NCBI GenBank assembly: GCA_001632425.1
Contig: KV425595.1
Span: 1-64,000, forward strand
DNA: 64,000 bases
Reading direction: 5' to 3'
DNA from: Neolentinus lepideus HHB14362 ss-1
Taxonomy: Eukaryota; Basidiomycota; Agaricomycetes; Gloeophyllales; Gloeophyllaceae
Every line of letters starts with the position of its first letter. Within the stretch, counting starts at the first letter, position 1. The position numbers and the translations under genes were made by a program. Of the stretch, positions 7,987-58,296 are shown in pieces. The notes beneath the pieces were generated by a model, which was given only the letters and a program-made list of their open reading frames with translations, was not told where the DNA came from and ran no database searches.

Positions 7987-8653
7987 CAGAATCTCTAGTC
8001 CCATCATGGTGGTCAATCATGAAAGCATGTTGTTTCATGTTCTGGTTTTGCACAGTCCAGCATACGTAGCTGCCTTACCGGAAGGAAAGGACCTCGGAAG
8101 CACTACAGGGCCGACGGAGAGTTCGACCGGCCGTGATCGCAACACTTTCGGTCATGTCATCGCTGCTAAGTTGAACGTCCGCCTCCACCTTTGGAACATC
8201 CCTCCAAATGCTCGAGCACTCTGATACTGTCCAAAGTGTGGCATATATATCACCTCAAGCGCTGCCGTGTTCTCCTCTCAGTCATACTCGCGGTCTTCTA
8301 CTCAGTTTAGTTGCAGATCACGTTGAAGTATTGAAGCGATAAACGTTACGTTGCTAAAGGCTCCTTCGACAGATGTTTCACATGAAGCAGGGCGAAGTTC
8401 TGACATGGCCTCGACGACACCCACCTTTCGTCGATTAGCTTGGTGTGCAGGGCTTAAGTTATGTCTGGCGAAGCACTACAATAGACGAACAAGAAGAAAC
8501 TTTGGACTTTCTGTTATACACGCCGTGCTGACTACTGAACTGTACGAGTACTAGAGAGTATTACAAGTGCATTGCACTCCAGCCTTCCCCATGAAGTCAG
8601 TCCTCTCCGAGATACACAATAGATGCCGGACTCCTGTCACATGCCAGTGGGTG
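7987..8653. other. Intergenic between convergent SDR and Hsp70-like gene A
   Basis: This holds the 3' flanks of the SDR gene and of Hsp70-like gene A. No supported coding frame, repeat or RNA gene was found. Part of it resembles sequence around 13600-13700 weakly, in line with the cassette duplication. Confidence 0.5.
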
Positions 8654-11085
8654 TCAGTGTGGAAACAACAGAACTGCAGGTTGACAATACCTCTTCTCTT
8701 CACCCTGAACGAGGCAAGAGATGATTATTTAGCGTGTAACTATGGGCTTGCAAAGAAACATTCCACGCACATTTTCCATCCATGCAATTTGAGCCTTAAG
8801 TTCGGCCAGTCCGAATTTCAACACAACTTTGTATCCAAAGCAATAGTATTTTTGTCCTTCGTGACCCCGGAGAGGTTTCAGCGATGATACTGCCTTAGAT
8901 ATATCGGCATGGACAGTGCACAATGCACGGTATGATTCTAGAAGTTGCCAGTAAGCCCGCAGATCCGAACTCGCCACATCTGTCATGCTCACCAGGTTCA
9001 ACATCATCTGTCCACCGGGGTTTAATGGAGCTACCATCGTAGGTCGTGATGTCGAAAGTTTTGTATCGCACACTGACACCTAGGAAATCTGACTCGGACC
9101 ATTTGGTACAGAGATCGATTGTAAATTCTTGCTCAATTCTGACTTTCCTATCCTAGTTATAATGAATGATCGCAGTACAAGTGAATTCATCCAATTCTTC
9201 CACTCACTTTCGGTACTATGCAATGATATGCCTTAGGCAGGTTCCAAGACCCAGAAGGGCACCGATACTTGCTCTGCTTGCGTGCAATATGCTCTAGGTC
9301 ACTGGGGTCATACCTGATGGAGCCCTTGACACCATATGCGGTCCGCGTCATGCGGGCAGATACAACATGGTCCATGTAGAATGCTACGGCTCCATCAGCC
9401 ACGGCCTTGTTTCTGTCCAAAGGTGCGTTTGGTGGTTTAGGCATCATGAGCGTGAAGACAGAAGTGGAATCTTGCTCACATGTGTCCGTCTGGACGTGAG
9501 ATTTCCGTGCCAGCGCCGCCTAGTTCTCTGCGCAAGCCGTCGAACAGGTAGTCACTGGCAGCGAAACCGCCCACGAAGAGGATCCTCTGTAGCCAGTATT
9601 CCAGGTTTAGGTACCGGATGCAAATGATGAGGGGCATACTTTTATAGATCCACCTGCCCGTCTTTGCTCTTGAATAGCGGCAAGTATAGCTTCCAGGGAA
9701 GGATCGAAGAGACGGGCCATGTCCGTCCTGGGTTCGTAAGATCGTTGTCACGCTCCTCGATAGGGATTCGCTGCCGACGCACCCCGTTAACTTCAGAATT
9801 CCTCTCGAAATCCCGTATTCTGGGTCATTGTCATTCCTAGTTCCAAATCGGATATGTGCTGTCTCGCCAACAGTCTTGAATCTACGCTTCACGGTCTTCT
9901 CGAAGCAATGTACGATATTGTCAATGTCTTGAGGGTCATCATAGATGGAACCCTTGAGCTTGTCTGGCCGGCACGAGTGCCGAGACAAAAATCAGAGCAG
10001 CTGGACCCTCGATGAAAGCGCGTACCGAAAAGGAACGACGATGCTCGTTGATTCACAAAAACAGCTCCTTGTAGACGACCTAATAGAAGGTCAATCCATA
10101 CCATAGGAAGAAAATCTGATCTCACGTACAGCCGGGCGATGCGACTTCCTCTACTTTGATAGGGCGGGTCTCCGTGATGAGATAAGAGCTTAGATCAATT
10201 GTCCCTCCACCTGCATCAACGACCATGATCTTGTTCCCGGTCTGAAAAACACAACTGTTGTCAATATACCGGCGAGGCCGTTACAGCTGACTTGAATCAA
10301 ACCTTGATTATATCAGAGGATAAGCCGTTTTCCAGACAATAATACAGACTCGCTTCTCCTTCAGTCACAAACTGTATCCTGTTTTCGGCGGCGTTCATAT
10401 CAGGCACCAGACCCGCCTGCACGGCGGCTATCCGCATCATTTGCTCCTGCAACCCTCCCCATCCGTTCGGATGTCCCATCACAAAATCGATATCTCCGTC
10501 CAGTGAGCGAAGGAGGGCATCACCAGCTGCGTGTGTAGTTCTGATGTACTCCTTCGCACACTCATAGAGATACATAAGGAAATCAGCAACAATAGTGGTG
10601 ATCGTCGTAAATGCCGGGAGTTGAGGTATGCAGTCATCTCTGACATGAGAAACATTCGAGTTCTTTGGCCGGAGATGAAGCTTGAACCTATACAAGAGAA
10701 CATTGAGGATAGTACCAGGCTGACACTGAAGATACTAACCACTCGACTCGGACCCATTCATTGTCCTCAGCTTCGCCATTTTCATACCGATTTTCTGCTT
10801 CCTGACCAACAGCCTGCAGGACACCGTTTACATCATAATAAAGCACCGATGGAACCTTAGAATCATGTTCGGCGTCGGTCTGGCCTGGAAACCTGATGCA
10901 GACTCGTTAGCAAAAGATGCGCTCCATGAGATCCGGGCGTACTTTGTCACCGTACAAAGCTTGGGCACCTCTCCTGGATCCAAAAGGGTGTATGAGACTC
11001 CGCTGCAAGTCGTCCCAACGTCTAAAGAAAGGACGAGCTTGCGCCTGGGACCCTTGTATGGTTTGCGAAACTGAGCACTGGACAT
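8654..11085 (-). CDS. HSPA12-like Hsp70 family ATPase (copy A)
   Basis: Twelve exons close in phase to 601 residues: 11085-10943, 10892-10740, 10687-10303, 10241-10130, 10079-10026, 9963-9783, 9727-9640, 9586-9480, 9412-9208, 9152-8993, 8937-8771, 8704-8654. The actin/Hsp70 ATPase motifs are present: phosphate-1 D-V-G-T-T-C-S-G-V-S-Y near residue 22, phosphate-2 D-A-G-G-G-T-I-D-L-S-S-Y near 236, and adenosine motif L-F-V-G-G-F-A-A-S-D near 375. No canonical Hsp70 peptide-binding domain or EEVD tail follows, as in HSPA12-type proteins, which are strongly expanded in basidiomycetes. The client is unknown. It lies head-to-head with the coiled-coil gene at 11400, and a TATA-like element sits about 50 bp upstream of the ATG. 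Confidence 0.9.
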
Positions 11086-11399
11086 GAGGATAAGCTATGA
11101 AGAGACAAGTATCGAAGCAGATGGAGCTACCTTATATATGGTCCGGCTAAGCGCACTCGTGACGCGGCTGCCTTATCATTATGACGAACACACATACATC
11201 TGTACTCGTATTAGGCTTCGGCGAAGGATGCACACATATCAATATCAATTCAATAGAAGATTCTCACCAAGGACACCTTTATGAGGGTTTGATTACTACT
11301 CAAGGCCCCTTATCAGTTCGAGATTTGTCAAGGCCATCCTTGATCCGAAAGACGGACTATATATACGTTATGTGGCGGCTTTTCGTTATTCATCGAGAC
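11086..11399. promoter_or_regulatory. Shared divergent promoter, cassette A
   Basis: About 315 bp separate the start codons of Hsp70-like gene A (minus) and the coiled-coil gene (plus). For the minus gene there is TATATAAG at 11131-11140, and for the plus gene TATATATA at 11358-11365. A GAA-n2-TTC inverted pair at 11256-11263 resembles one heat-shock element unit. CCTTATCAG (a GATA-type site) at 11308-11316 recurs in the second cassette at 16695-16703. Confidence 0.5.
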
Positions 11400-12919
11400 A
11401 TGATAGGAATCCGGACTTGTCTGCGTGTGCTGAAAGCTTGTGCTTTTCGTATTCTCCTCGCCCTGATTCCGACCCGTACAGATTCCACGGTGGGTTTCTG
11501 CCGGTCTTCGGACTATGATGAAGAGCGCGGTGACCAGGATGAAGAGGGCGTACTATTGAGAGAAATCCAGCGTAACGGGGTTGGAGGGTCAGGCGCTAGA
11601 TCAGAAAATTCAGGCGATGCAGAGGAATTGAGGAGACTCCTAGAGGAAAGCGAGGAGCTGCTGAAGCATGAGAAGCACAGAGGGAGACAGCTGGATGCCG
11701 ACTGTCGCAGGTTGGCGCAGGAGAAGGAAGCAGAGACCGATCGCATGAAGGGGGACATTGCAGAGCGGGATCGACGTATCCAGGAGCTCGAGACGGAACA
11801 CGCTATGTTCGCAAGACGATACGAAGACCAGAGGAAGTTATTGGAAGCTCGATCGGCGGAACTTCACGTCGCCCAGACGTTCCTCACGAAGGCGGACACG
11901 ATATCTGTCACAGAGGTCAAAAACATGATCAGCGATCTGAACATTGATATTTTCCAGATGTCCGCTACACTAGTGGATGTGCTGGACCTGAGCATGAGAA
12001 GAAAGAATGGAGGAGCAGAAGCGTTGCAGGCCCAAGAGGAAGTCAAAGCCTGGTTGACACCAGACTTTGCTCTCGCCTTGGGCACTGCTGACGATCCATC
12101 TATTTTGTGCACTGCAATTCAAGGTGTTATGTGCTCTTATTGTGACGCTCTCATCAGGAGCTTGCCCCATCACTTCTCAGCAGGCAGAGCGCAGAATAAT
12201 AACACGTACAGAGTGCTGTACCGCGCCATTAAAGAATGTGGTCAGTATCCCATCTTTCGCAGTTGATGCATTGAGTGAGACGGTGTACTATAGAACCCCA
12301 AGCCGTAGCAGGTCGCTGGCGCTCTCTAACTCGTGAACACCTACGACGAGCAGGAAATAGCGAGGAAGCTGAATATGAATCCTTCCTTTCGGAAGTATTC
12401 ACAGCGATCCAGCTCCTTTGCGCCGCAACAGGCTGCATCGAGTTCTCGTCATCGATTGGCCAGACCGCACAACACAATATAGGCGGTATTATCCAACTTG
12501 CCCTGCACCTACGGAACGTGATGGGGGAGAAGATCACTTCCTGTGATTTCAAGACACTGCTGGTAGATCCGGGGAGGCCATTTGAAAGTGGATGGATGGA
12601 AGAGGATGGAGCAGACACATCAGAGAATCAAGGGTATCTGAGCGATTCTCGGGTAATATGCACCACGGAACTGGGCCTCTTGCGCAGCGAAAGAATAAGC
12701 ACAGAGGACGGACAGACAAAGGACAATGAAGACGTGATCATGAAGCCGAAAGTAGCCTTGCAAACGCTCCTCCAAGCTCCGCCGATCCAGACACCCCCGG
12801 CAAGGCGTAGGAGACGCAGAAAGTCAGACAGCAGCTCCCGCCGAGCTTCTTCGCCCACGGAAGGTGCTTCACGGGAGGAATGGAGAAGCCATACAGGATT
12901 CGCAGGTGGATGTCGTTGA
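11400..12919 (+). CDS. Coiled-coil protein of unknown function, family member 1 (C-T-T-E-L-G-L family)
   Basis: Two exons, 11400-12240 and 12294-12919, are joined by a 53-nt phase-1 intron (about 488 residues). A heptad-like Glu/Arg/Leu-rich coiled coil is followed by T-F-L-T-K-A-D-T-I-S ... D-L-N-I-D-I-F. A helical block comes next (D-P-S-I-L-C-T-A-I-Q-G). Directly after the intron is E-P-Q-A-V-A-G-R-W-R-S-L-T-R-E-H-L, and near the end C-T-T-E-L-G-L and M-K-P-K-V-A-L-Q-T-L-L. The same order occurs at 16815, 41834 and 55576, so it is a local four-member family. I do not recognise a described domain. The start is uncertain: in-frame ATGs exist at 11181, 11370 and 11400, and 11400 was taken because of the TATA box at 11358. 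The tail is basic. Confidence 0.78.
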
Positions 12920-14032
12920 AGTGTAATCGACAAAACATCTGAGCTCGCTGGGAGTCCTCTCGACAAGCCTGTTGCGTTTTGTAATGTTGTTTGGTGTCCT
13001 GCATTGACTGTGTTTCTACTACGATGGTCCGAATTGACGTACGTTTTTGTATACATAGCAAAGAAACACAGTTTATCATCGCCAAGACTATCTGGAGTCG
13101 GAGCGTGGACTGGACATCGACATTATTGTTTTTTTGTTCCGAAGCTTCATCTTCATCGATCACGGTCCGAGGAACGGCAAAGGAAACGTGAACACAACAT
13201 TAGTCGACAACGGTCAGTCTTGGAATTGAGAAGGCTGTTGCTCGGCGTAGCCAGGCCTTAGTGTCATCTCATCAATAATGTGAAAGAGAAACATCTCGTC
13301 ACGGTGTCTGTCCCACGAGACTAGTCGATATATCCAGCTTCTTTCGTTGTCGCTTGGCGTCATCCGAGTGTGTAGGTTATATGAATTCGTGCGACGACCA
13401 CGTCGAAGATCCAAGATGCTGAATACAACATCTGAACCATACACCCTCCGAGTCCCAGCTTTGCGTACGCATGGGACTGATGAACCCAGCGCCCTCTGCG
13501 TACTGCCGCAGCCTGAGGCTGAGGGGGGAAGCTCGGGTCAGTTGCTCGCCTACTAAGTCTTTTTTAGGAGACGCGTACCAAGTCTAGAATTTGCCATTCA
13601 CCTTCTGTTGATATCCGTGATACATGACTGGATCTGGTCACGCATCAATGTGGAAAGTAATGACCGGTGCGCATCGCATCTTGTGCCATATATGTGTATG
13701 CCAGTGAATGCTCGAGGCTTGCAAGTGGAGTCAGTTCCCTATGTGCTGTATGATTCTACGAAACAAAATGTCTCCATCACGTTGGCTCAAGCCTCAGGCC
13801 TGCAAGTTTGTCGGCAGAATCAACAGTCATATGCAAGTGAGACTCGTTCCAGGATCGTAAATTGCCTTAGACTTATAGCTAGATTTGTACTGCCATCCCA
13901 ATATACATCACACTGTTGGTCAAGCTATGAACTTTGGGCACCAGAGCACAATGATGCCGCCGGGACCGCAGCCTAGTCCTCATGATACACAATGGTCACT
14001 GGACTTCTGGATATACGACTGCGTCAAAGCGG
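12920..14032. other. Spacer between cassettes A and B
   Basis: Apart from the decayed SDR fragment at 13440-13640 there is no supported gene. It carries the 3' flank of the coiled-coil gene and of Hsp70-like gene B. Confidence 0.5.
13440..13640 (+). pseudogene. Decayed 3' fragment of the SDR gene
   Basis: This stretch matches the last exon of the SDR gene in patches and in order. GAACCCAGCGCCCTCT matches the copy at about 7714. GCCTGAGGCTGAG then GAAGCTCGGGT matches about 7768-7795. TTCTGTTGATATCCGTGATACATGAC matches the SDR stop-codon region at about 7960-7988. Several deletions and frameshifts separate the patches. It precedes Hsp70-like gene B exactly as the SDR gene precedes Hsp70-like gene A, so it marks one edge of a tandem segmental duplication. 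Confidence 0.65.
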
Positions 14033-16439
14033 TTATTGTTGAAGGAATAATGTATCATACCTCTTTTCGACACCCTGATGAGTGCAAACGGTCAATGATC
14101 AGCCTGTTATCGTCCAGGGTAGTAGGCAGCAAACTCTACTTACGTCCTCCGTCCATCTCATATGAGCTTTGAGCTCCGTAAGTCCAAAATTCAACACGAT
14201 CCTAAAGTGAAATTGATAGTAAAGTTGACCACTCGGGCCTCGCATAGGCTTCAGGGATCTTGCTGCCTGTGATACATTGGCGTTGATGGTGCAAAGTGTG
14301 TGATATGATTCTAACAATGGCAGGTTAGTTCGTGAATCCTTCAGAATCTTGCCTCGGCGGTTCACCAGGATCGACGTCAGTCCACTGCGGGTCAACAGAA
14401 TCGCCACTATAGGTAGTGATGGTGACCGAAATAGAGATTACAGTATTCAGCGTCGCCGACTCTCTAAAGAAGTCCTCAGAATATTCTTCTTCGGTATCGA
14501 TTTTGCTCCCCTAGAGAAATAACGAATCTCAGAACGTACGGACAGATCAGAAACTGCTGCGTACTTTGGAGACTATGCAGAGGTATGCGTCAGGCAACAT
14601 CCGGCGTCCCGAAGGTTGGACGAAGATCTTCCGCAACCGTACCATATGACTCAATTTGCTAGGATCGTAGCTTCTGGTACCCTCAACACCATATGTTATT
14701 CGAGCCACCCGTTTCGACACAACATGGTCCAGGTAGAAAGCTAGTGCACCGTCGGCAACTGCCTTATTACTGGCCACGAAAACAATTTATCCGTAGTGAC
14801 GACGTGGTGAAGGAAGTAGGATCATAGGAACTTACGTGTATCCGTCAGGACGGGAGATTTCGACGCCAATGCCTGCCAGTTCTCCGCGCAATTTGCCGAA
14901 CAGGTAGTCGTTGGCAGCGAAACCCCCGACTAAGAAGATTGTCTGTAGTGAAGGTTAAGTATAAACTAGACTGTCCATGCTGAGAGCTTAACCTTTATAT
15001 CTCCCCCTTCCCGCCTTTGCTCTTGGATAGCGTCCAACATGGCGTCCAACGAGGGGTCAAAGAACCCTGATACCTCTTTCCTGATCCAGATACTACTTGT
15101 CAACAAGACCAAAATAGAAAATGCGAAAGATCTACCCAGTTAGCTTCAAAACGCCTTTCGAGATACCGTACTCTGGATCATTATCATTCCTTGATCCGAA
15201 GCGGATATGGACTGTCCCAGTGGATGCCTTGAATATGCGCTTCACAGTCTTCTCGAATGACTGCACAATATTTTCTATCTCTTGGGGATCATCGTATATG
15301 GAGCCCTTGAGTTTCTCTGCTTGGCGCATAGCACCGCGTGAACATAAGTTAGGATGCACCAAGGCAGGGACCGCACCCAAAAGAAAAGTAGACGCTCGGT
15401 CGTTGACGAAACTGGAGCCTTGCAAACGGCCTAGGGCAATGTCACAGAGAGTTGCCGACGCGATTGTGGGTTACTTACAGCCGGGAGCCGCAACTTCTTC
15501 CGCTCTGACAGGCCCAATCTTCGTGATACGATAAGAGCTGAGGTCGATGGTCCCTCCACCTACATCCACAATCATGATCTTATTATCAGGCTAAGAAGAG
15601 ATGGGATCTGTCAAAAGCACAGAACGAGAGGTTACGCAAATCCGACCTTGATGACATCGGACGATAGGCCGTTCTCCAGACAGTAGTACAGGCTGGCTTC
15701 CCCTTCCGTCACGAATTGAATCCTTTTTTGGGCAGCTTCCATATCAGGGACTAGTCCAGCATGGACGGCTGCCTTCCGCATTCGCTGTTGCTGTGGGCCA
15801 CCCCAGCCGTTAGGATGTCCCATTACAAAATCTATATTCCCCTCCAATGACAGGAGGAGCGCATCACCAGCTGCATGGGCAGTTCTGATATAGCCCTTTG
15901 CACAGCTGAAAAGATATGCCAGAAAATCAGCGAAAACGTCGATAATGGTCTTAAGCACCGGGAGTCGAGGTAGCTGGTCGTCTGTGATATGAGGAGCGTT
16001 CATACGGTTTGGCCTAAGATGCAACTTGAACCTGCATATGGAATCGTCACTGGCGCTTATACCAAGGGCAGAAAGCAAACGTGCCATTGAACTCGAATCC
16101 AATCATTATCCTCCGCTTCTCCACTTTCGCGCAAGTTCTCCGCTTCTTGGCCAACTGCTTCGACGACACCATCGACATCGTAGTAAATGATGGAAGGTAT
16201 CTTGGAGTCCCCTCCAGACTTTGTCTGACCAGGATACCTTAAGAAATTACGGTCATTCAAGAGGGAAAGCCAGCCTTGCGCAAGTCGTACGTCGTCACAG
16301 TGAATATCTTTGGAATTTGCCCAGGGTCCAAAATAGTGTACGATATCCCACTGAACGTCGTACCGATATCCAAGGCAAGTACGAGCTTGCGACTAGAGCC
16401 GTCGTACGGTTCCCGAAATTGGGACTGAGTGAGCAGCAT
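14033..16439 (-). CDS. HSPA12-like Hsp70 family ATPase (copy B)
   Basis: Twelve exons at positions equivalent to copy A give 596 residues: 16439-16291, 16237-16085, 16031-15647, 15590-15479, 15430-15377, 15319-15136, 15080-14993, 14942-14836, 14769-14565, 14510-14366, 14310-14144, 14074-14033. Motifs include D-I-G-T-T-F-S-G-I-S-Y, D-V-G-G-G-T-I-D-L-S-S-Y and F-L-V-G-G-F-A-A-N-D. Eight exons have exactly the length of their counterparts in copy A, confirming tandem duplication. Sequence divergence is large enough that the event is old. Intron 2 starts with GC (TG|GCACGT) where copy A has GT, so it may be spliced inefficiently. An upstream in-frame ATG exists, but 16439 was chosen by homology with copy A. 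Confidence 0.9.
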
Positions 16440-16814
16440 GACAGAGGACTGTAGTAAATCTGCCACGCGGAGAGCGGTCTGTTTGTAGGGGGAAGAGTGG
16501 GAAAACAAGGGATTCTCGCGAGCAATGTATCTTATAGACCGTGGGGGTCCATGTGGCGCTGCTGCATCATGGCGAGCGCCCACAGAGCAGGGACCCCTGC
16601 TGGACTTCAACGCAGATAAGAACTGAATGTGAATTGAATAGAACCCCACCGGTGCTAGTACCGATATGACAATTCTTTCGCCACCCAAGGACCTCCTTAT
16701 CAGGCTTGCTGGTAGAAGTAGAGCATCCGCAGTAAAATTTGTAGGCATATACTAACGACCCTGGGGTTGCTCCTGCATCCTTTCATCCTATTGACGAACC
16801 TCTCAGAGGTTACG
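16440..16814. promoter_or_regulatory. Shared divergent promoter, cassette B
   Basis: About 375 bp lie between the start codons of Hsp70-like gene B and its coiled-coil partner. A TATAAG element on the minus strand lies at 16531-16540. CCTTATCAG at 16695-16703 matches the site in the first cassette at a similar distance from the plus-strand start (112 versus 84 bp). Confidence 0.45.
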
Positions 16815-18264
16815 ATGTCCGGTTTCTGGTCTTTAGGCATCATAGGAAGACACGAATGGAGTCAAACATTCACGTCGAGACATGGCCAAACTGTTGAAAT
16901 GGCAGGATCGTACCATGCACCCGTGGATCAAAGAGTTTTCGAGGAGTTGAGGGAAGCAGTGAGGGAAGCAGTAAGGGAAGCAGCAAGGGATCGCGATGCA
17001 ATGATAGAGCACGAGAATCGAAGACGAGTGGAGACAGAATCCGCACTTGTCCAGCTACACCAGCTACAACAAGAAAAGGAGAGAGATGTTGGTCGGTGGA
17101 GGGAGGCCCTTATGAGCCGCGATAGCAAAATCGCAGAACTGGAGACGCGCTGCACTAGTTTGGGGAGACAGTTGGTGGAACGGGACAAACTCCTAGAGGC
17201 TCGCACGACAGAACTCCAGGTCGCGCAAACGTTTCTGGCAAAGACGGATACAAGATCCGCCACCGAGATCAAGAATATGGTCAGCGATCTCAATGCCGAT
17301 GTCTTCCAGATGGCGGCCACAATAGCTGATAACGTGGATTTCGGAAGGAGAGCTGAACAGTGGCGAGCGGACACGACTGAAGCACATAATAGTGTTCAAC
17401 GCTGGCTGGGGCGCGACCTCGCTTTCGAATTGGGAAGAACAGACGATTCTTCTATCCTACAGATTGCGCTGCAAGCTGTCATATGCTGCTGTTGCAACGA
17501 CATTGTTAGCGGCTGGCCTGTCAATGTGGGGGAAGAACAGGTTCTCGAAAATACGACATATCAGAGGACCTACCACAGCATCCGAAAGTACCGTTAGTAC
17601 TTCCCCTTGCCAGACCTGGATATTAGGACTAATACGGATCCCAACAGAGCATCAGGCCGTGGCAGGTCGCTGGCGCTCCCTCGCCCGCGAGCACCTGCGA
17701 CGATGGGGCACAGGAGATCAAGCAGAATCGCAGTATTTTCTAGCACACGCTCGGGAAGGGATCCAGTCTGTATGTGCAGCCACTGGTTGCGTCAGCGCTG
17801 CGGAACTACAGGATTTGATTCATCGCGCCAGTCATGACAACTTGACCGCAATAATCCAACTAGCTCTTCGTCTACGGAATACGCTCGGAGAAGAAGTCAC
17901 GTCCTGCGATTTTGGGACATTGCTATATGCTTCGGGGCACCTCGTCGATCCTCGATGCATGGAGGACGATGAAGGGCAACCGTTAAGGCACAATGATTCT
18001 CCCGTGTTGTGTACCACAGAGCTGGGCTTGATACGGAAGGAGGAAATTGACATGGAGGATAATGAAGCGGAGGTCAGCCAAGATGTGATCCTCAAGGCCA
18101 GAGTAGCGCTAGTTTCGCTCCTGCGATCCTCACAGGCACAGACGCAAACGATGGGGAGGGGTTACGCCAGGAAGTCCAAGAAACAGGGAAAGAGTCCCAA
18201 TCAAAACTTAGGAGCAGGCGCAGCTTTACAGGGAGTGTCCAAGTCCAAGGATAATCATGTGTAA
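16815..18264 (+). CDS. Coiled-coil protein of unknown function, family member 2
   Basis: Exons 16815-17592 and 17648-18264 (phase-1 intron, 55 nt) give 464 residues. ATG 16815 has A at -3 and was preferred to the in-frame ATG at 16767. The coiled coil covers about residues 35-135 and includes a repeated R-E-A-V pattern. It is followed by T-F-L-A-K-T-D-T-R-S ... D-L-N-A-D-V-F, then S-S-I-L-Q-I-A-L-Q-A. After the intron comes H-Q-A-V-A-G-R-W-R-S-L-A-R-E-H-L, and near the end C-T-T-E-L-G-L and L-K-A-R-V-A-L. It is closest to member 1 at 11400 and has the same divergent partner, so both arose by cassette duplication. No known domain was recognised. The C-terminal tail is basic and low-complexity. 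Confidence 0.82.
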
Positions 18265-41833: not shown

Positions 41834-43483
41834 ATGTTCTTGTTCCGCCGAGGAAAATCCAAGCGCACAAAGGCGAGTGCAGGCTATTCGCGAAGTACAC
41901 CAGCTACGCCGCACTTTGGTTTCCGCACGGTCGGGACGGATGATGGTCACGAAGTGCTAGGACATGCTGAAGCGAATCGAGGCGGGCTGATGGGTCGGGA
42001 GGCGGCGATGGAGGCGGAGCTGGCCGAGTTGCGCGAGCAGTGCGATGCCATGCGGGACACGATGCGGTCCTTGGCTCTGGAGCGGGATGCTGGCCTTCGC
42101 GATGCGCATGCGAAGGAGCGAGAGATACTGGAGGCGAAAAGATACATGACCACTCTGAAGGATCAGCTCGTGGCCTCTGAGAATCGGAGAGATATGCTTC
42201 AGCAAGACGCCGATGATGTTCAGAGGAGAATGTCCATACTGGAGGAGCAGGCGCAGATGGCAAATGAGCTGCTCAAGGTCAAAGTGAGTGGTCGAGAGCT
42301 TACTTATCAGCTCGTGTTCACAGCATCTTGCTTGCAGGACGGTGCTCTTATGGAACTTCAGCGTAAGAACGGCAGTCTGGCAGCATCTCATTCAAGAACG
42401 CTTGCGTTATTGCAGGCCAAGGCTGTCGAACTCGAATCTGTCCAAGCTTTTATTGACATTGGCAGAGTCGATACCGTCTCCGAAGACGACGTCTTTAGAG
42501 CAATGCGGGAGCTCAACGCCAAAATCTTGGATACCGCAATTGTTTTGGCGGATGCCCTCCAATACGAAAGTAAGCATAGGACTCCAGATGGAGACAGAAT
42601 TCCCATCGACAAGGCGACGAACCGAGTGAAGGAAATGCTAGGACCTTTAGTGGTCCAGCGGCTCAATGACTGTCCAGAGCGGGAAGACGCTGCCATCGTG
42701 ATACAGATTGCGTTTCAGGGATGTATGGTCCTTCATTGCGCTTGGCAAATTGCCGCGTGGCATTTCGACTTCGAGCTGGCCAGAGAGTGCAAGCTGCTGC
42801 AAGAAATGTACGACCATGTACGCCAAAACGGTGAGCACTACAGGCAGTAAAGTCACGCGATAACTTACACGAGCACTTAAGAACCCCAGGTCGTCTTCAG
42901 CAGATGGCGAAGCGTCGCTCGCAAACACATCCAGTCAATGCGGCACGGCGACTCGCCTGACTCCGCAACACCCTCGCTGATCTCACAACTCATCAAGCGC
43001 TTGGTGGACGTTCTACTTGTCGCCGGGTGCAACGCAACGAAGGAGTCCCAGGTACACGAGATGATCATGAACGTATATGGCGACAGACTGCAGACCGTCA
43101 TTCATCTCGCACTGGGACTGAATAAGATCGTTGGCATCGACGCGTTGTCGTGCGACTACGAGCCTGTTTGGACAAGGCCTGATGTTCCCTTCAATTCGGT
43201 GTGGATGGAAGATATGGACGGCAAAGAAGAAGGCGACAAACAGACTCTCGATGGACCTACTGTCGTTCGAGTCCTTTGCACTACGGGAGTAGGTCTACGC
43301 CAAAAGGTGAAGGCTGGGCCGCGACAGAGACGGAAGTCGCGGAGTGACTTGAAGAGTATGTTGGTCATCAAGCCGAGGGTGGCTCTCGAGACTGTGCTAC
43401 ATGAACGAAGACGCCTGGAAGTACGAAACAGCTGGTCTGCCAGTGGCGCCAGTGTCCTGGGAAGTGATGGGTCGGAAAGATGA
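41834..43483 (+). CDS. Coiled-coil protein of unknown function, family member 3
   Basis: Exons 41834-42283, 42338-42830 and 42882-43483 give 514 residues. The first intron (54 nt, no stop, divisible by three) interrupts the coiled coil. Removing it keeps the heptad pattern, so splicing is preferred, though retention would still be translatable. The N-terminus is basic (M-F-L-F-R-R-G-K-S-K-R). The coiled coil covers about 60-195, followed by I-V-I-Q-I-A-F-Q-G and a W-x3-W-H-F-D-F motif. After the phase-1 intron come E-P-Q-V-V-F-S-R-W-R-S-V-A-R-K-H-I and, near the end, L-C-T-T-G-V-G-L and I-K-P-R-V-A-L-E-T-V-L. The middle helical part is closer to member 4 than to members 1 and 2. Confidence 0.82.
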
Positions 43484-49302: not shown

Positions 49303-52300
49303 ATGCCCAAACGAGCCAAGACACCGCCGCCCGCCTGGGACTCGGAGCCCACATACTTTGTCGTGTACCAGCCCTACCCCATCAACGCCAACATGGAGCT
49401 CTCCGCCGACCGCATGCGCTTTGCCTTCTGGCTCGCATGCGCCCTCGGGGATCCCAGCCATCTCTTCGCCCTCTTCCACAAACCCTCCGTGCGTCCTAGC
49501 CCTTTGTGCTGACTTCCTAACTCGTTGTGCTGACTTTCCAACCCTTTGTGCTCAACCCTAAACTTAACATCCCAGTCCCCCGGCATGATCATCATCGAAG
49601 TCAACAAATCCTTCACCCCCCACTCATCGCTCCTCGGCGCGCACCAGTGGTCCGCCATCCTGCGCGCCCCCGCGCGCGACGAGGCCGAGCGCGCCAGCAA
49701 GATATACTACTGCAAATACAACACCGCGCGGCAGGTCGAGAAAGCCGGTGCGCCGAATCCAAGTATCGTGTGTTGAGGTAAAGAGCTGACGGCGACATCG
49801 CAGGGTGGAAGAGGAAGATGGTCGAGGAGGCGTGGTTCAGCAAGTGGCGGTTGGACAACTCGTGCGTCGCGATCCTCATCTCCTGTCATGTCTTCACCAC
49901 CCTCACCCCCCACACACCAGCGTCATCACCCACCCCTACCCGCCCACGCACGCCTGCGCGCTCCCCGCCGAGACCGTCACGACCGAGGGCCTCTGCCGCC
50001 CGCTCCCCGTCAGGCTCTTCCCCCGCCCTCCGGTGCCGGCGAGTAGGCTGCCGCCGCGTGAGTGGTGTTTGAGATTTTGGCTGTGTGGGGATGGTGTGCT
50101 GATTGTTTGTGTTTTGCGAATACGATACTCGATTTTGGATTTTGGATTTTGCGAATACGATACTCACTTTTGCGTTTCGCGAATCCTACACCCACTTTGC
50201 CTTTCGCGAATCCTACACCCACTTTTGCATTTCGCGAACCCTACACCCACTTTGCATTTCGCGAATCCTACACTCATTGCATTTCGCGAATCCTACACCC
50301 ACTTTTGCCTTTCGCGAACCCCATACTCATACTCACTTCCATTTTAGCCGGCTCACACGCCTACCTCGCCGCAAAAACCCAAGCCGCGTCCGCACCCAAA
50401 CCCACGAAAATCCAGGACCTCGGGCTATGTAAGCCACCCACCTTCTGATAATCGATTTGAGCTGACGTTTGTGTGTTTGTGTTTGGGCAGGGGGCGTACC
50501 GCCGTCGGGTCGTATTGCAGGAGGCGTATCCCCGTCGGGTCGTTTTGCAGGGGGCGGATCGCCGTCGGGTCGTTTTGCAGGAGGCGTATCTCCGTTGTCC
50601 GATGTACGTTTTGCAGGATGCGTACCTTCGTCGCCGTCGAGCAGCGACGTCACGCCCAGCCCGACGAGTATGTCTGTGGCGGATCCGCTTGTCCCCTTTG
50701 GCCGAGCGCCCGACTTGAAGGCCGCTGCCACATCGCCCGAGTTCGGCAGTCTCGCGACGCACGAGTCTGGCAGTCTCGCAACGCCCGAGTCCGCCGCACC
50801 AGTTAGTCTTGGTCCCCCGCCTGGCCTCGTGCACCCGAGCATGCTTTACTTGGACGAAGAGGAAGAGGAAGAGTACCTCCCTCTACCCACCCCTTCCTCT
50901 TTCCCCTTCCCTGCCTCTCCCACCCCTTCCTCCACCTGGGAGCTCGCGTCGCACATCTACGAAGCCGCCGACATGGCTGCGTCCAACATCGAAGCCGCCG
51001 ACATGGCTGCGTCCAATCCCGAAGCCGCCGACATGGCCCCCCCGTCCTCCTCTACCGATAATCTGTGGGCGGGGTACGGTAAAGAGCACGAGGAGGAGGA
51101 GGGGGAGGAGATGTGTCCGGACCACGGCGCGACATGTGGGCGGGGGATATGCGTGACAAGGAAGGAGATTGAGCGGCGGAGGAGGCGGGAGGAGAGNNNN
51201 NNNNNNNNNNNNNNNNNNNNNNNNNNNNNNNNNNNNNNNNNNNNNNNNNNNNNNNNNNNNNNNNNNNNNNNNNNNNNNNNNNNNNNNNNNNNNNNNAGGG
51301 GCAAAGGTGAGTGTCAGGGATTTTCGCGGGGTTGGGCTGACGGTGGTGGTGTGCAGGCCGGGGTTCGGGGTCGTGGGACGTCGACAAGCCGGCGTGGGAT
51401 GTGGGCTCGAGCAAGAGTAAAGCTTGGGATGTGGACTCGAGCACGAGCAAAGCTTGGGATGTGGACTCGAGCACGAGCAAAGCTTGGGATGTAGACTCGA
51501 GCACGAGCAAAGCTTGGGATGTGGACTCGAGCAAGAGTAAAGCTTGGGATGTAGACGGCCCCAAAGCGAAGTCGGCGTGCGACATCGACGGCCCCAAAGC
51601 GAAGTCGGCATGGGACATCGACGAGACTCTGAGTCCCGTATCGACTTCGGCTGGGGGTGCGTCGGACTCGGGGTCTAGCAAAGGCAAAGGCAAGGACTCT
51701 AGCAAGGGCAAAGCCTGGGATGTAGACGGTCCTGCGACCCGTCAAGTTTCGGGGTCTAGCAATGGAAAAGACGCGGGCTCTAGCAAGGGAAAAGACGCGG
51801 GCTCTAGCAAGGAAAAAGACTCGAGCAAGAGTAAAGCCTGGGATATAGACTCGAGCAAGGGTAAAGACTCAGGCTCTAGCAAGGAAAAACACTCGAGCAA
51901 GGGCAAGGCCGGGGCTGCAGCCAAGTCTGTATTGGATAAAGCCTGGGATATAAACAGCCCAAAAGCAAAGTCGGCATGGTCCATCGACGGTACGGAGACT
52001 CCGAGTCCCATATCAGAGTCGACTTCCGGTGGAGCCGTATCAGAGTCGACTTCCGGTGGAGGTACAAAGAGCACTTCAACTGGGGGCACAGAGAGCGTCG
52101 TAGGTGTGACTCTGTGGGATGTGACCGGAAAGCAGACTCAAATGTCCAGCAGCGTAGGCCGTTCCCCGTCGACTGCGGATTGGGGTGACCCGACTGCGGG
52201 CGAGCGGTGGGCCTCGGAGAGTGTCGTAGGTGCGACGCCGTGGGATGGGGCTTGGGCGGTGACCGGAAAGCAGAAGCAAAGCGCTCGTGCGGCGTCTAGC

Positions 52301-52717: not shown

Positions 52718-53532
52718 GCCCTTTTGTCTTCATGATCAAATGGCTGTGCGAGTCTTATCGAGATTGTGCGGAGTGGAAGTGGAAGGTGGGAGTTCTGTGT
52801 TCGCGGATGACGCTTTCTGTCTTGCCTCATGTTCCTTTGCCTCGCTCTGTTGCAATTGTTGTTGTTGAAATGCTCTCGCTCGGACTCTGACTTGGTCGAC
52901 GTTATAGCACCCATTTCAAAATCTTTTCTGCGAGCCGTTGAGTTTCTGGTAGATTTTAGCTAGCTGTTGTTTGTCTTCTTTTCTTTCTTGCCTGTATGTA
53001 GTTAGTTGTAAAGCCCTTTCGAGGCTCTATCAAATTCATATCCATGTTTATCGAAATTATCCGAGCTAGGTTTGCGTGGCCGTAAGCGCATCCCGCTTCT
53101 CCGCTAACTCTCAGGTGTGGATCATGGCCACTTCCAGGCTAGCACTACCCACGGGCATAGTCGTGATCCCCGCAGTACTGGACTACTACTCTCCCAGTCC
53201 GTCGACGCATGTTCGTTATGTTTTCCGTCTGACGTGGAAAGCTGTGTCCGACTACGCCGACTACTCCATGCTTTGATGGTACAGCTATCTGACGTATTCT
53301 GAAGCATCTCGCGGTCCTATTTGCCTCAAAGTTCAACAATAGCTGTGTTGACGAGCTCTCTTTGTCGACATCTATTCCTCTCAAAGTTTTTGACGAGCGA
53401 CGAGCAAGCGGATATCTTGTCAAATTACGACATGTGAGGCGATTTTGACTTATGAAAGCGGGCAGGCTTTTATGTTTTGACGCAGTGCTGTCGGACGTCA
53501 TATTGCAATATCTATCTATCTCTGAACGAAGA
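52718..53532. other. Intergenic
   Basis: No supported gene was found. It holds the 3' flank of the repeat-rich gene and the promoter of the membrane protein at 53533. Confidence 0.4.
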
Positions 53533-54603
53533 ATGGGAAGCTCGCAAGGAGTCAGTGCCGGCGCTCTAGCCGGAATCATCGTAGCGGTGGTCGTGACGAT
53601 CCTGCTAGCAGTGGTGATAATCGTCCCTCTGGCAAGGCGCCGCACAAAGAGCGCAGAACAGACGCAGAAGGGAGATGCTGAGCAGCAGAGCGGTCGGACA
53701 GCGCACGCGCGTATGAAATCTGGCGAGCTACCACTGCTGCATCCCATGTCACCCTTGTTCGGGGAGGCTGCGAACTTACCCACATTCCCGGATCATCCAG
53801 ACGAGAAAGGCTCTCCCCGGCGCGTGAGGATCGGCGTTTCGCATCACGGATCACCAGAGCTGCAGGGAAGTCCCCCGCCGGCGTACCATTCTCCGCACGA
53901 ACGAACGTCGTCCACAATCCTTCTCAGTACTCCGGCGGAAGTGCCGTCATCGCGACCCTCGCAATCTGCGCCATCGACCTCTGCCAAGTCTGCTGACAAT
54001 TCCAGTCGCTTGAAGAGAGGCGCCAGGCTTGGACTGCGACGGTCTCCGATGGAGACGCTCGTCGAGCAGTCCGACATATCTTCCGGGGACGAGGCTGCCC
54101 GTACCGCGCAAAGAGAGGCGCAGGACCCGCCCGAGTCGTCGCACCGACCATCTGCTATGGTCCGACTAGTCACCCAGCCCTTGACGTCCGCCTTCAGGAA
54201 CAGCCTGCGCTCCATCAGCACGCAATCATCGGGCTCTGCGCCCTCCGCCGTCCTGCAACACTACCCCTCCTTCACAGCGTCCTCCGCCACCTACGCCACG
54301 GCCGCCGAAGATGTCTCCCCCTCCGCCTCCCGAACCGACCTCTCCTTACGATCGCAAGTGTCCAGCTCACGCCCGCCGGTGCGGGCGCCGCGCCCAAGTG
54401 CACCGTCACCAGCCGCCTCGCAATCTCCCTCGCGTTCGACAACAACGACAACAAAGCGAGCGCATCTGCGCCCTTCGGACGCCGTGCAGAAACCCACTTT
54501 TCACGAAAATCCCCCGGCACCGTCTATGCCACGGCAGGCCAGCATCAACTTTGTCGAATCGTCGCCAGCGCGTGCCGATGAGAGTAGATCCTCAAGGCGA
54601 TGA
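53533..54603 (+). CDS. Single-pass membrane protein with Ser/Pro-rich cytoplasmic tail (copy 1)
   Basis: This is one uninterrupted frame of 356 residues from ATG 53533. A short, uncharged N-terminus is followed by a strong transmembrane helix (about residues 11-33, A-L-A-G-I-I-V-A-V-V-V-T-I-L-L) and a stop-transfer A-R-R-R. The rest is disordered and rich in Ser, Pro and Ala. It includes a P-P-P-A-Y motif (candidate WW-domain ligand), R-R-S-P-M-E-T-L-V-E and M-V-R-L-V-T. The gene at 58297 shares the layout, the R-S-P-M-E-x-L motif and V-R-L-V-T, so they are paralogues. By the positive-inside rule the tail should be cytoplasmic. Function is unknown; a membrane adaptor is a guess. Confidence 0.72.
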   Translation: MGSSQGVSAGALAGIIVAVVVTILLAVVIIVPLARRRTKSAEQTQKGDAEQQSGRTAHARMKSGELPLLHPMSPLFGEAANLPTFPDHPDEKGSPRRVRIGVSHHGSPELQGSPPPAYHSPHERTSSTILLSTPAEVPSSRPSQSAPSTSAKSADNSSRLKRGARLGLRRSPMETLVEQSDISSGDEAARTAQREAQDPPESSHRPSAMVRLVTQPLTSAFRNSLRSISTQSSGSAPSAVLQHYPSFTASSATYATAAEDVSPSASRTDLSLRSQVSSSRPPVRAPRPSAPSPAASQSPSRSTTTTTKRAHLRPSDAVQKPTFHENPPAPSMPRQASINFVESSPARADESRSSRR

Positions 54604-55575: not shown

Positions 55576-57016
55576 ATGTCAATCTTCTACTGGATATTTT
55601 CATACACAATGGGCCTTCGCGACTTCGTTTCTTACTACTTCACTCGCGCGCGAGCAGACGGGCAGGCGACGGCCACCATCGAAGAAGCTAACGGCCACCA
55701 AGTGGTCCCCAACGGGAACAGCAAGACCGACATGGAGATGCTTCAGCGAGAGATGGACGAGATGAGGAGGCGGTCGGAGGCGTTAAAGGGAGAGCTGGAC
55801 GCTGAGCGGGCAGCAATGTCTGTAGCGGAGCAGCGGCTGCAAGAAGAGGAGGAGAAGAACCAGGCTATGCGACGGGAGCTTGAGCAGAAGAAGCAAGAGT
55901 CGGTGGAGCTCGCTGATCGGCTGCACACAGTCGAGAGTCGCTTGACCACGCAGGAAGTCGAGCTGCTGAGGACCAAGGACGAGGCCGACAAGCACGTCGC
56001 CGCGCTCGCAGAGCACCAAAAGGCGCACGAGGCTCTCGTTGCGGTGCACAGCCAGCTCGTCACATCCAGCGCTGAGACGTTCTTATCGACAGCCGACGAT
56101 GTCTCCGAGAAAGACGTCATTGCGCTCGTGCAAGACGTGAACGTCGAGATCCACAAGGTCGCCCAGCTCATCGCTGACACGTACAAGTACACGGCGCACA
56201 AGATCGACGCGAGCCAGCAAGGCGTCGCTGCGCGCGAGTGGGCGGAACACGCGCTTGGCCGGCAGATGATGCAGCTCCTGCAGGAGACGGACGACCCGAC
56301 AATTGTGCAGGTCGCGTTCCAGGGAACCATTTCGATGTACGCCCATTGGACGGCGAGGTGCTGGTACTTCGACTTGTCGCGGGAAGCCGAGGTGATTGGT
56401 GATATTTATGACGATGTGTATTATCATATGCGAGAGACAGGTGAGTGTTCCTCTCTGATCTGAGAATATGCCAAACTCACGTCTTCGGCGCGTATTCCCA
56501 GAGACAGTGGCGGTCGCACGGCGATGGCGAGCCTTGACACGCAAGCATATTCAGTCTGTCGTCCACGGCGACTCCGATATCGCCGCTAGTCTTGTACCTC
56601 GTATCGCCGAGCGTCTTACCGATATTCTGCTCGTCGCGGGTTGCAAGGCTCCCCTGAAACAAGTCACTGAGACGATGAAGACAAAGTTCATGGAAAAAAT
56701 CAAGGCAATCATCGTCCGGGCTCTGAAGATAAATAAGGTCATCGGCCAAGAGGTCCTGTCGAGCGACTTCGAGGTGACGTGGGTGTCTCCCGAGGAAGCT
56801 TACGACTCCACATGGATGGACGACATCGACATCGAGCAGGAAGCCGGTAAGAAAGACAGCGAAGATGCGATCAGAGTGCTCGGCACGACGGAGCTCGGTC
56901 TTGGTCGTATGGAGAAATTGGTGAGCGATGCTGGTAGTGAAGAGTGGAAAGACTCGTGTCTGGTAAAGCCGAAGGTCGTCCTGGAGTCTATGGTAGAGTG
57001 GGACGGAGAGAAATAA
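55576..57016 (+). CDS. Coiled-coil protein of unknown function, family member 4
   Basis: Exons 55576-56440 and 56502-57016 (61-nt phase-1 intron) give 459 residues, or 448 if ATG 55609, with A at -3, is used. A hydrophobic/aromatic N-terminus (F-Y-W-I-F-S-Y and F-V-S-Y-Y-F) precedes a long Glu/Arg coiled coil (about 45-165). Then come T-F-L-S-T-A-D-D-V-S, I-V-Q-V-A-F-Q-G and W-Y-F-D-L-S-R-E. After the intron are E-T-V-A-V-A-R-R-W-R-A-L-T-R-K-H-I and, near the end, L-G-T-T-E-L-G-L and V-K-P-K-V-V-L. It has no Hsp70-like neighbour, but sits between two paralogous membrane-protein genes. The domain has no assigned function that I know. Confidence 0.82.
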
Positions 57017-58296
57017 TCTTCGAGGCCTTGATTTCGCGAGTCTTTTTATTCTGCTATTATATGACACGAAGATAACAGGTGGACTACAAAGTAGCGCAAG
57101 TATGCCATAGTCATTTACGTACGGGTATTGTCTTATTTACTCTCAACTGTAATGCTTAATTAGCATCAGAGGAAAGTCCACGTCGACGGAATAAGAAATA
57201 AAGCAGGGGATAAGATGCGTACTTGGCTATACATCACTCTGGGTGGTTCTTGAGCCATCTGCGTACGGCACTGGGCATAGGACAGGCAGTTGACTCGCCC
57301 TTATCTTGCGTAGCCTTATACATTGACTCGCAACACAAGTAAAGCTGTCGCATATGCTTCTCACATTTCTCTGGGCTATACGTGTTCTTGTTTAGACAGG
57401 ACTGCAGCTCGCATGCTATGCATCATGTCGGAACACTAGACGGGAATGCTTCACTGCTTCCGCCCACCTTGGACTTGACAGGAGTCAGATTCTTGCGGCT
57501 GCCAACAAGCCTTAGATACGCAACATTGCATTTCGACAAGAAACAGAATGTGCTCACCTTTGCCATCGCACTCAATACGCAGTGATATGCTATATTTCGA
57601 ACGTCGATGTCACAACTGCCATGCACAGGCGCTAGAGCGCTGTAATGAATTTGGTAGTCAAATTTGGGACTCCGAAATGAGGTCTTCTATTAATCTTCAT
57701 TAACGCTTTCTCTGTCGAACATACATGTATCATATTCTTCTATCCGTATCCCGGTACCTGTCGTATACGAGGCAAGTGAATTCCGGTATTTGCGCGACTG
57801 AAGTTCTGCGCACGTCCGTGGGCCCAGCGCTTGACATTCAATATCCACTGCCTAGTGCATTGCACCAATTGTTTCAGCAGATATTGCGCGCAGACGCCAC
57901 TAGTACATGTAAGAATGACATATTATATTGTTGTCCGCAGTTGATTGTAGTGGGTCGCAGATACCGGATGTTATAGTACACGTACATCAACGCCCCCATC
58001 AGTGAAGCCACACCAGTGTCCGGGCGATCTTGAGACTCTTGGACTGGGTGTCTTTCACTGTTATACGGTCCTCCAGGACATTCAGGCACCCGAAGCGAAT
58101 TCCTGACTGTTCAAATCTTACGGTCTGTCCATTGCCGCCTATGGGAAATTTAGGAACTATTTCTGAGTTCCCATAGGAGGGCAAGCACAGGATCATGCTC
58201 CGTTGTGATTGATAGATCTGACAGGACCGATGAGACGTTTCATATAAGTACTCGGTCCTGACCTTCTTCATCCCTTCCTCGCTCGACTACTCAGCC
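57017..58296. other. Intergenic, about 1.3 kb
   Basis: Only short frames lacking splice consistency or motifs occur. No repeats or RNA genes were recognised. The right end is the promoter of the membrane protein at 58297. Confidence 0.4.

Follow-up and report, generated by a model that had tools for sequence, protein, structure and literature searches.

Recurrent head-to-head pairing of HSPA12-like Hsp70-fold ATPase genes with a coiled-coil gene family in Neolentinus lepideus

The first 64,000 nucleotides of contig KV425595.1 (hereafter the window; contig C45 of the 33.8 Mb Neolentinus lepideus HHB14362 genome) carry two adjacent units, each consisting of a minus-strand gene for an HSPA12-like ATPase of the Hsp70 fold and a plus-strand gene for a protein of an unnamed coiled-coil (CC) family, arranged head to head. 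In unit A, ATPase A (8597..11085, minus strand; deposited as NEOLEDRAFT_1180846, here P0010) and CC_A (11400..12919, plus strand; exons 11400-12240 and 12294-12919; 488 amino acids) have in common an upstream region of 314 bp (11086..11399). In unit B, ATPase B (14099..16439, minus strand; NEOLEDRAFT_1071368, here P0007) and CC_B (16815..18264, plus strand; exons 16815-17592 and 17648-18264; 464 amino acids) flank a common upstream region of 375 bp (16440..16814). A preliminary description of this DNA had reported two such units with start codons about 315 and 375 bp apart and ATPases of 601 and 596 amino acids; both units are present and open, the measured spacings are those of the two upstream regions, and the deposited proteins have the same sizes. 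Internal stops are absent from the reading frames of CC_A and CC_B and, in each ATPase, from exons 1 to 11. The two upstream regions align in part (for example over CCTTATCAG and AATAGAA), and region A has TATA-like sites close to both of its ends and no clear heat-shock element within its 314 bp.

The deposited proteins P0010, P0007 and P0001 map exactly onto the window, and the remaining differences among gene models concern exon boundaries and starts. ATPase A begins at 11085 and ends at 8597 in the deposited model, or at 8654 with the other last exon used in our own model and in the preliminary description. The latter had counted 12 corresponding exons in each ATPase gene, eight of them of the same length; the correspondence holds, and the counts depend on the model, as the deposited genes have 13 exons (A) and 11 (B), of which five are equal in length (112, 54, 88, 107 and 205). 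Eight equal lengths (385, 112, 54, 181, 88, 107, 205 and 167) would need three alternative, predicted splices in ATPase B. The deposited splice of intron 2 of ATPase B (16095-16015, minus strand) omits Phe-Lys of the conserved WFKLHLRP, a dipeptide also missing from the deposited B-type ATPase of Heliocybe, and splicing at the paralogous position would require a GC donor (GCACGT). The lysine of this motif may match the catalytic lysine of Hsp70. For CC_A, the deposited NCBI model (P0001, NEOLEDRAFT_1119465; 373 amino acids) starts at 11745 and lacks the first 115 residues; the Heliocybe protein P0130, whose N-terminus resembles that of the longer product, supports a start at 11400. No deposited protein equal to CC_B was found among the matches of the CC searches.

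Both genes of the unit are old and under constraint. Between units A and B, residue identity is 64% for the ATPases and 43% for the CC proteins. By the NG86 method, nonsynonymous divergence (dN) is 0.25 and synonymous divergence (dS) 1.9 for the ATPases (dN/dS about 0.13), and dN is 0.49 and dS 2.2 for CC_A and CC_B (dN/dS about 0.22), where dS is near saturation for both genes and the ratios are therefore rough. Differences at third codon positions exceed those at second positions in the ATPases (0.55 vs 0.17) and in the CC genes (0.60 vs 0.32), which indicates protein-coding constraint in both. The combination of low dN/dS and nearly saturated dS marks both as old coding genes under purifying selection.

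The predicted structure of ATPase B (pLDDT, the predicted local distance difference test, 89.6) shows a bilobed actin-like nucleotide-binding domain followed by a beta-sandwich, and thus has the fold of the Hsp70 superfamily. The DxGTT, GGGT and GG positions, which we take to be the phosphate-1, phosphate-2 and adenosine motifs of the Hsp70 ATPase site, are invariant in a 50-row alignment and present in ATPases A and B. A C-terminal helical lid is absent from the P0007 model, where the last helix spans residues 540-543 and strands continue to 589, the deposited last exon being uncertain. At the sequence level the proteins are remote from the Pfam family of Hsp70: P0007 scores 13.2 bits against a PF00012 cut-off of 20.6, P0010 has no match, and weak matches at E <= 0.01 occur in 12 of the 50 relatives, P0007 not among them. 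The ATPases resemble HSPA12 in having an Hsp70/actin-type nucleotide-binding domain with phosphate and adenosine motifs, then a beta-sandwich and, in the model, no lid, and differ from it by the pairing with a CC gene and the weak PF00012 match. The label HSPA12-like itself rests on the automatic UniProt name "Heat shock 70 kDa protein 12A" of some close matches.

For the CC family, Pfam gave no match above its cut-off, and comparison with solved structures gave no confident one. The predicted model consists of a long helix (57-146), then a helical domain (153-346) and finally beta strands (390-419). A hydrophobic N-terminal segment is present in CC_A, in the Heliocybe proteins P0002 and P0130, in the Lyophyllum member and in the metagenome protein P0005; it is weak in CC_D and absent from CC_B, CC_C, CC_C3 and P0129. 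Family members in other species include LshimejAT787_0410210 of Lyophyllum shimeji, OE88DRAFT_1660031 and 1660045 of Heliocybe, GLOTRDRAFT_93752 of Gloeophyllum and GGG16DRAFT_104852 of Schizophyllum.

The searches of the genome yield best candidates, and the copy numbers are therefore lower bounds. Those made with ATPase exons and whole proteins give at least four HSPA12-like loci, namely A, B, one on contig C3 (67.2-69.57 kb) and one on contig C77 (48.3-50.7 kb), and the CC searches give at least five CC genes with both main exons, namely CC_A, CC_B, CC_C (41834..43483, plus strand) and CC_D (55579..57016, plus strand; start codon approximate) in the window and one at C3:70018-71617. The C3 genes form a third head-to-head pair, with the ATPase on the minus strand (start at L022:5066; the model is approximate and lacks a short exon) and the CC gene on the plus strand (start at L022:5519), their starts 452 bp apart. 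Three of the four HSPA12-like genes and three of the five full-length CC genes found in the N. lepideus genome are thus paired. By our own estimate (3 x 2 x 1 kb divided by 2 x 33.78 Mb, assuming random placement), about 9e-5 cases would be expected by chance in which one of CC_C, CC_D or CC_C3 lies within 1 kb upstream of one of the two non-tandem ATPases in matching orientation. The HSPA12-like gene on C77 (L023) is very diverged, with an end branch of 4.17 against a median of 0.32. CC_A to CC_D, four of the five full-length members found, fall within about 46 kb. A partial CC relative on C3 (L044:3846-4868, about 690.3-691.4 kb) retains the middle motif before its sequence turns low-complexity; it starts with MNSFWSF, similar to MSGFWSL in CC_B and MSIFYWI in CC_D.

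The pair on C3 did not arise as a recent copy of the units in the window. When the C3 region is compared with the window by tblastx, none of the 40 top matches reaches 27 bits unless it falls in the cassette or in a CC gene. Two ATPase trees were built, one of 40 rows (38 of the 120 listed matches plus C3 and C77) and one of 31 (30 matches plus C3, with the long-branch C77 omitted). ATPases A and B fall in a single clade with relatives from Heliocybe and Gloeophyllum (support 100/100), joined by Jaapia (100/100), and in the unrooted 31-row tree the C3 ATPase lies on the opposite side of the branch leading to A/B and Jaapia, with rows from other orders, presumably Agaricales, Boletales, Polyporales and Atheliales. 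Forcing it together with the Gloeophyllales A/B rows is rejected by the approximately unbiased (AU) test on the 31 rows (p-AU 0.00025), and it is this position outside the A/B clade that argues against a recent copy. Under any rooting of these sequence trees, the C3 and A/B ATPase lineages parted before a split between orders, and the pairing is either older than their separation or arose twice. The preliminary description had conceded that the cassette might be only a local duplication; the C3 pairing, which stands outside the A/B duplication, bears on that objection within this genome.

The trees further bear on how the unit was duplicated. The ATPase tree places two Heliocybe proteins with A (100/99) and a third with B (100/100). 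The CC family was analyzed in trees of 14 rows, of 11 (without P0006, P0130 and P0131) and of nine (without CC_C, CC_C3, P0005, P0006 and P0129), and in the nine-row tree CC_B groups with Heliocybe P0131 (100/99). The swapped CC pairings are rejected, both for CC_A with P0131 (p 4e-5) and for CC_B with P0002/P0130 (p 2e-7). In the best trees, Heliocybe accordingly has two A-type genes and one B-type gene in each family, and it has a further ATPase, P0015, that has no CC match. All seven Heliocybe ATPase and CC proteins are listed on contigs of one size (1,120,927), and the one CC protein (P0128) and two ATPases (P0009, P0011) of Gloeophyllum likewise on contigs of one size (1,857,171), from which we infer the same contig in each species. 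These patterns fit a duplication of the whole unit before the split of Neolentinus and Heliocybe. The earlier statement that the pair was kept together through an old duplication stands as regards age and intactness, and its joint duplication, read from trees rather than directly, is well supported and very probable.

Several observations weigh against a long-standing ATPase-CC module. No ATPase match lies beside CC_C or CC_D or in the 9.9 kb surrounding the partial CC gene at 691 kb on C3, and no CC gene was found beside the C77 ATPase, so that pairing is frequent and not obligatory. The CC tree leaves the position of CC_C3 unsettled, its deep part being unresolved with long branches for CC_C3 and CC_C, and the paired CC genes neither come out as a clade nor are rejected as one (p-AU 0.36). 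The grouping of CC_A with Heliocybe P0002/P0130 in the best tree is weakly supported (64/56), and P0130 (N-terminal) and P0131 (C-terminal) are partial models, counted as two genes since their sequences differ where they overlap. Jaapia, four of whose listed ATPases group with A and B, gave no CC match in searches of low sensitivity: each scored just those candidates with most words in common (7993 and 7998), and P0004-P0006, found by the first, are missing from the list of the second. The absence of CC proteins from a species consequently means little.

The recurrence of the head-to-head arrangement suggests that the ATPase and the CC protein work together. The interpretation that we tentatively prefer, at somewhat short of an even chance, is a functional pair with shared expression, the ATPase governing whether the CC protein assembles or is released. 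The window would then hold two copies of an ancient two-gene module, made up of a lidless Hsp70-fold ATPase and a dedicated CC partner. The CC protein would assemble through its long helix, the nucleotide cycle of the ATPase together with its beta-sandwich, which resembles a substrate-binding region, would hold, release or disassemble it, and the common upstream region would keep the expression of the two genes in step. The CC protein would be a client or effector under ATPase control and not a general co-chaperone. The C3 pair and the matching Heliocybe copies of both genes strengthen the functional link put forward in the preliminary description, though it is still unproven. The nearest alternative, which is quite possible and carries a somewhat smaller chance, is passive linkage, whereby two unrelated genes came by chance to use one compact bidirectional upstream region in an early ancestor, were copied in tandem and stay together because separating the promoters would be harmful, with no joint function. 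The short upstream regions (314-452 bp), the adjacency of A and B as tandem copies, the persistence of CC_C and CC_D as open unpaired genes and the existence of the unpaired, diverged C77 ATPase are all in line with it. It accounts less readily for two long-separated ATPase lineages that keep the same neighbor family in the same orientation within one genome, and for trees that fit joint duplication before the Neolentinus-Heliocybe split.

Two other explanations also give the pair a joint function. By analogy to GrpE, which has a paired long helix, a helical part and a beta tip, the CC protein might be a dedicated nucleotide exchange factor or other co-chaperone of the ATPase, and the order of long helix, helical domain and beta strands in its predicted model is a coarse parallel. 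The helical domain of the CC protein is larger than that of GrpE and no sequence match or confident fold match to GrpE was found, the lack of a listed fold match for the CC model in itself excluding nothing. The HPD motif of J-domain co-chaperones is absent from all eight CC proteins checked, and no co-chaperone family, GrpE included, is among the Pfam matches listed for CC (25 of 32 families in one listing). The earlier proposal of a co-factor is thus not borne out in the known co-chaperone sense, and we regard an exchange factor as unlikely. Slightly less likely again is a pair acting in fungal immunity or allorecognition, in which the ATPase would sense through its C-terminal region and control a CC effector that assembles by itself and is partly directed to membranes. 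In fungal cell death, a sensor and an executioner are often encoded by a two-gene cluster, as described in PMC10197012 and PMC3321046, and the hydrophobic N-terminal segment of some CC proteins would suit a membrane-directed effector, even as its patchy occurrence in the family speaks against one. No known death-effector domain is among the Pfam matches listed.

The immune explanation draws also on the C-terminal region of the ATPases. Identity over residues 425-580 was compared among 115 proteins. The 21 pairs of seven Gloeophyllales A/B-type ATPases were set against 5671 other HSPA12-like pairs, matched by nucleotide-domain identity to within 0.03, with P0015 in neither group and the pairs non-independent. 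The beta-sandwich region falls in the lowest 5% for 10 of the 21 pairs. For Heliocybe P0012/P0013 the identity is 0.53 at a nucleotide-domain identity of 0.89, lower than in any of 10 comparison pairs; for Gloeophyllum P0009/P0011 it is 0.47 at 0.76, lower than in any of 93. Six of the 10 low pairs, however, involve P0009; the ATPase A/B pair is ordinary (0.48 at 0.70, with 53 of 368 comparison pairs no higher), and two pairs exceed the comparison mean (P0010/P0012, with 194 of 214 at or below, and P0010/P0013, with 280 of 367). Between the A-type P0012 and P0013 of Heliocybe sulcata, identity is about 97% in the first 160 residues and drops to about 50% in the last 150, a pattern that would result either from gene conversion of the 5' part, encoding the N-terminal half, or from a diversifying C-terminal end. 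The most specific version of the immune idea is also the least probable of the possibilities considered, and decidedly speculative. It holds that mushroom-forming fungi have here an undescribed sensor-effector module whose sensor would be an Hsp70-fold ATPase in place of an NLR. The substrate-binding-like region of the ATPase, fast-changing in some members, would recognize a signal, and the ATPase would release the CC effector encoded beside it, which would assemble by itself and in some members be directed to membranes.

Elsewhere in the window, a 100-N assembly gap (51197-51296) lies within a repeat-rich coding-like stretch of repeated AWDVD units. Long open stretches at 53449-54603 and 58234-61257 flank CC_D, and both have a hydrophobic, membrane-span-like segment near the start (LAGIIVAVVVTILL... 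and VGIAGGMVLVLVL...).

Adjacent sensor and effector genes have precedents in fungal cell-death systems (PMC3321046, PMC10197012), and clusters of two genes, one for a pore former and one for a sensor, have been termed functional units (PMC10197012). The HET-S/NWD2 and gasdermin/protease clusters described there likewise consist of adjacent genes for an ATPase or sensor and an effector, conserved as a unit. They use STAND/NLR proteins or proteases, whereas the pair described here has an Hsp70-like ATPase and a partner with no known effector domain, and is not known to have a death phenotype. The term Hsp70 is absent from the main text of PMC10197012. A literature search with most subscription journals outside its coverage, where the pair may be described, returned nothing on HSPA12-like proteins of mushrooms beyond one row, "Heat shock protein 12A", in a table of proteomics data from Hypsizygus under heat stress (PMC7813762). 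The third pair on C3, the pairing counts and the Heliocybe and Gloeophyllum copies are new here. HSPA12-like proteins are numerous in Agaricomycetes: one search gave 1115 matches at E <= 1e-30, and among the 120 listed, those that are named read as Agaricomycetes from their names. As a CC gene stays back to back with two long-separated ATPase lineages, its product is a tangible candidate partner and would give a starting point for learning the function of these lidless Hsp70s, and the candidate pairing makes their role testable.

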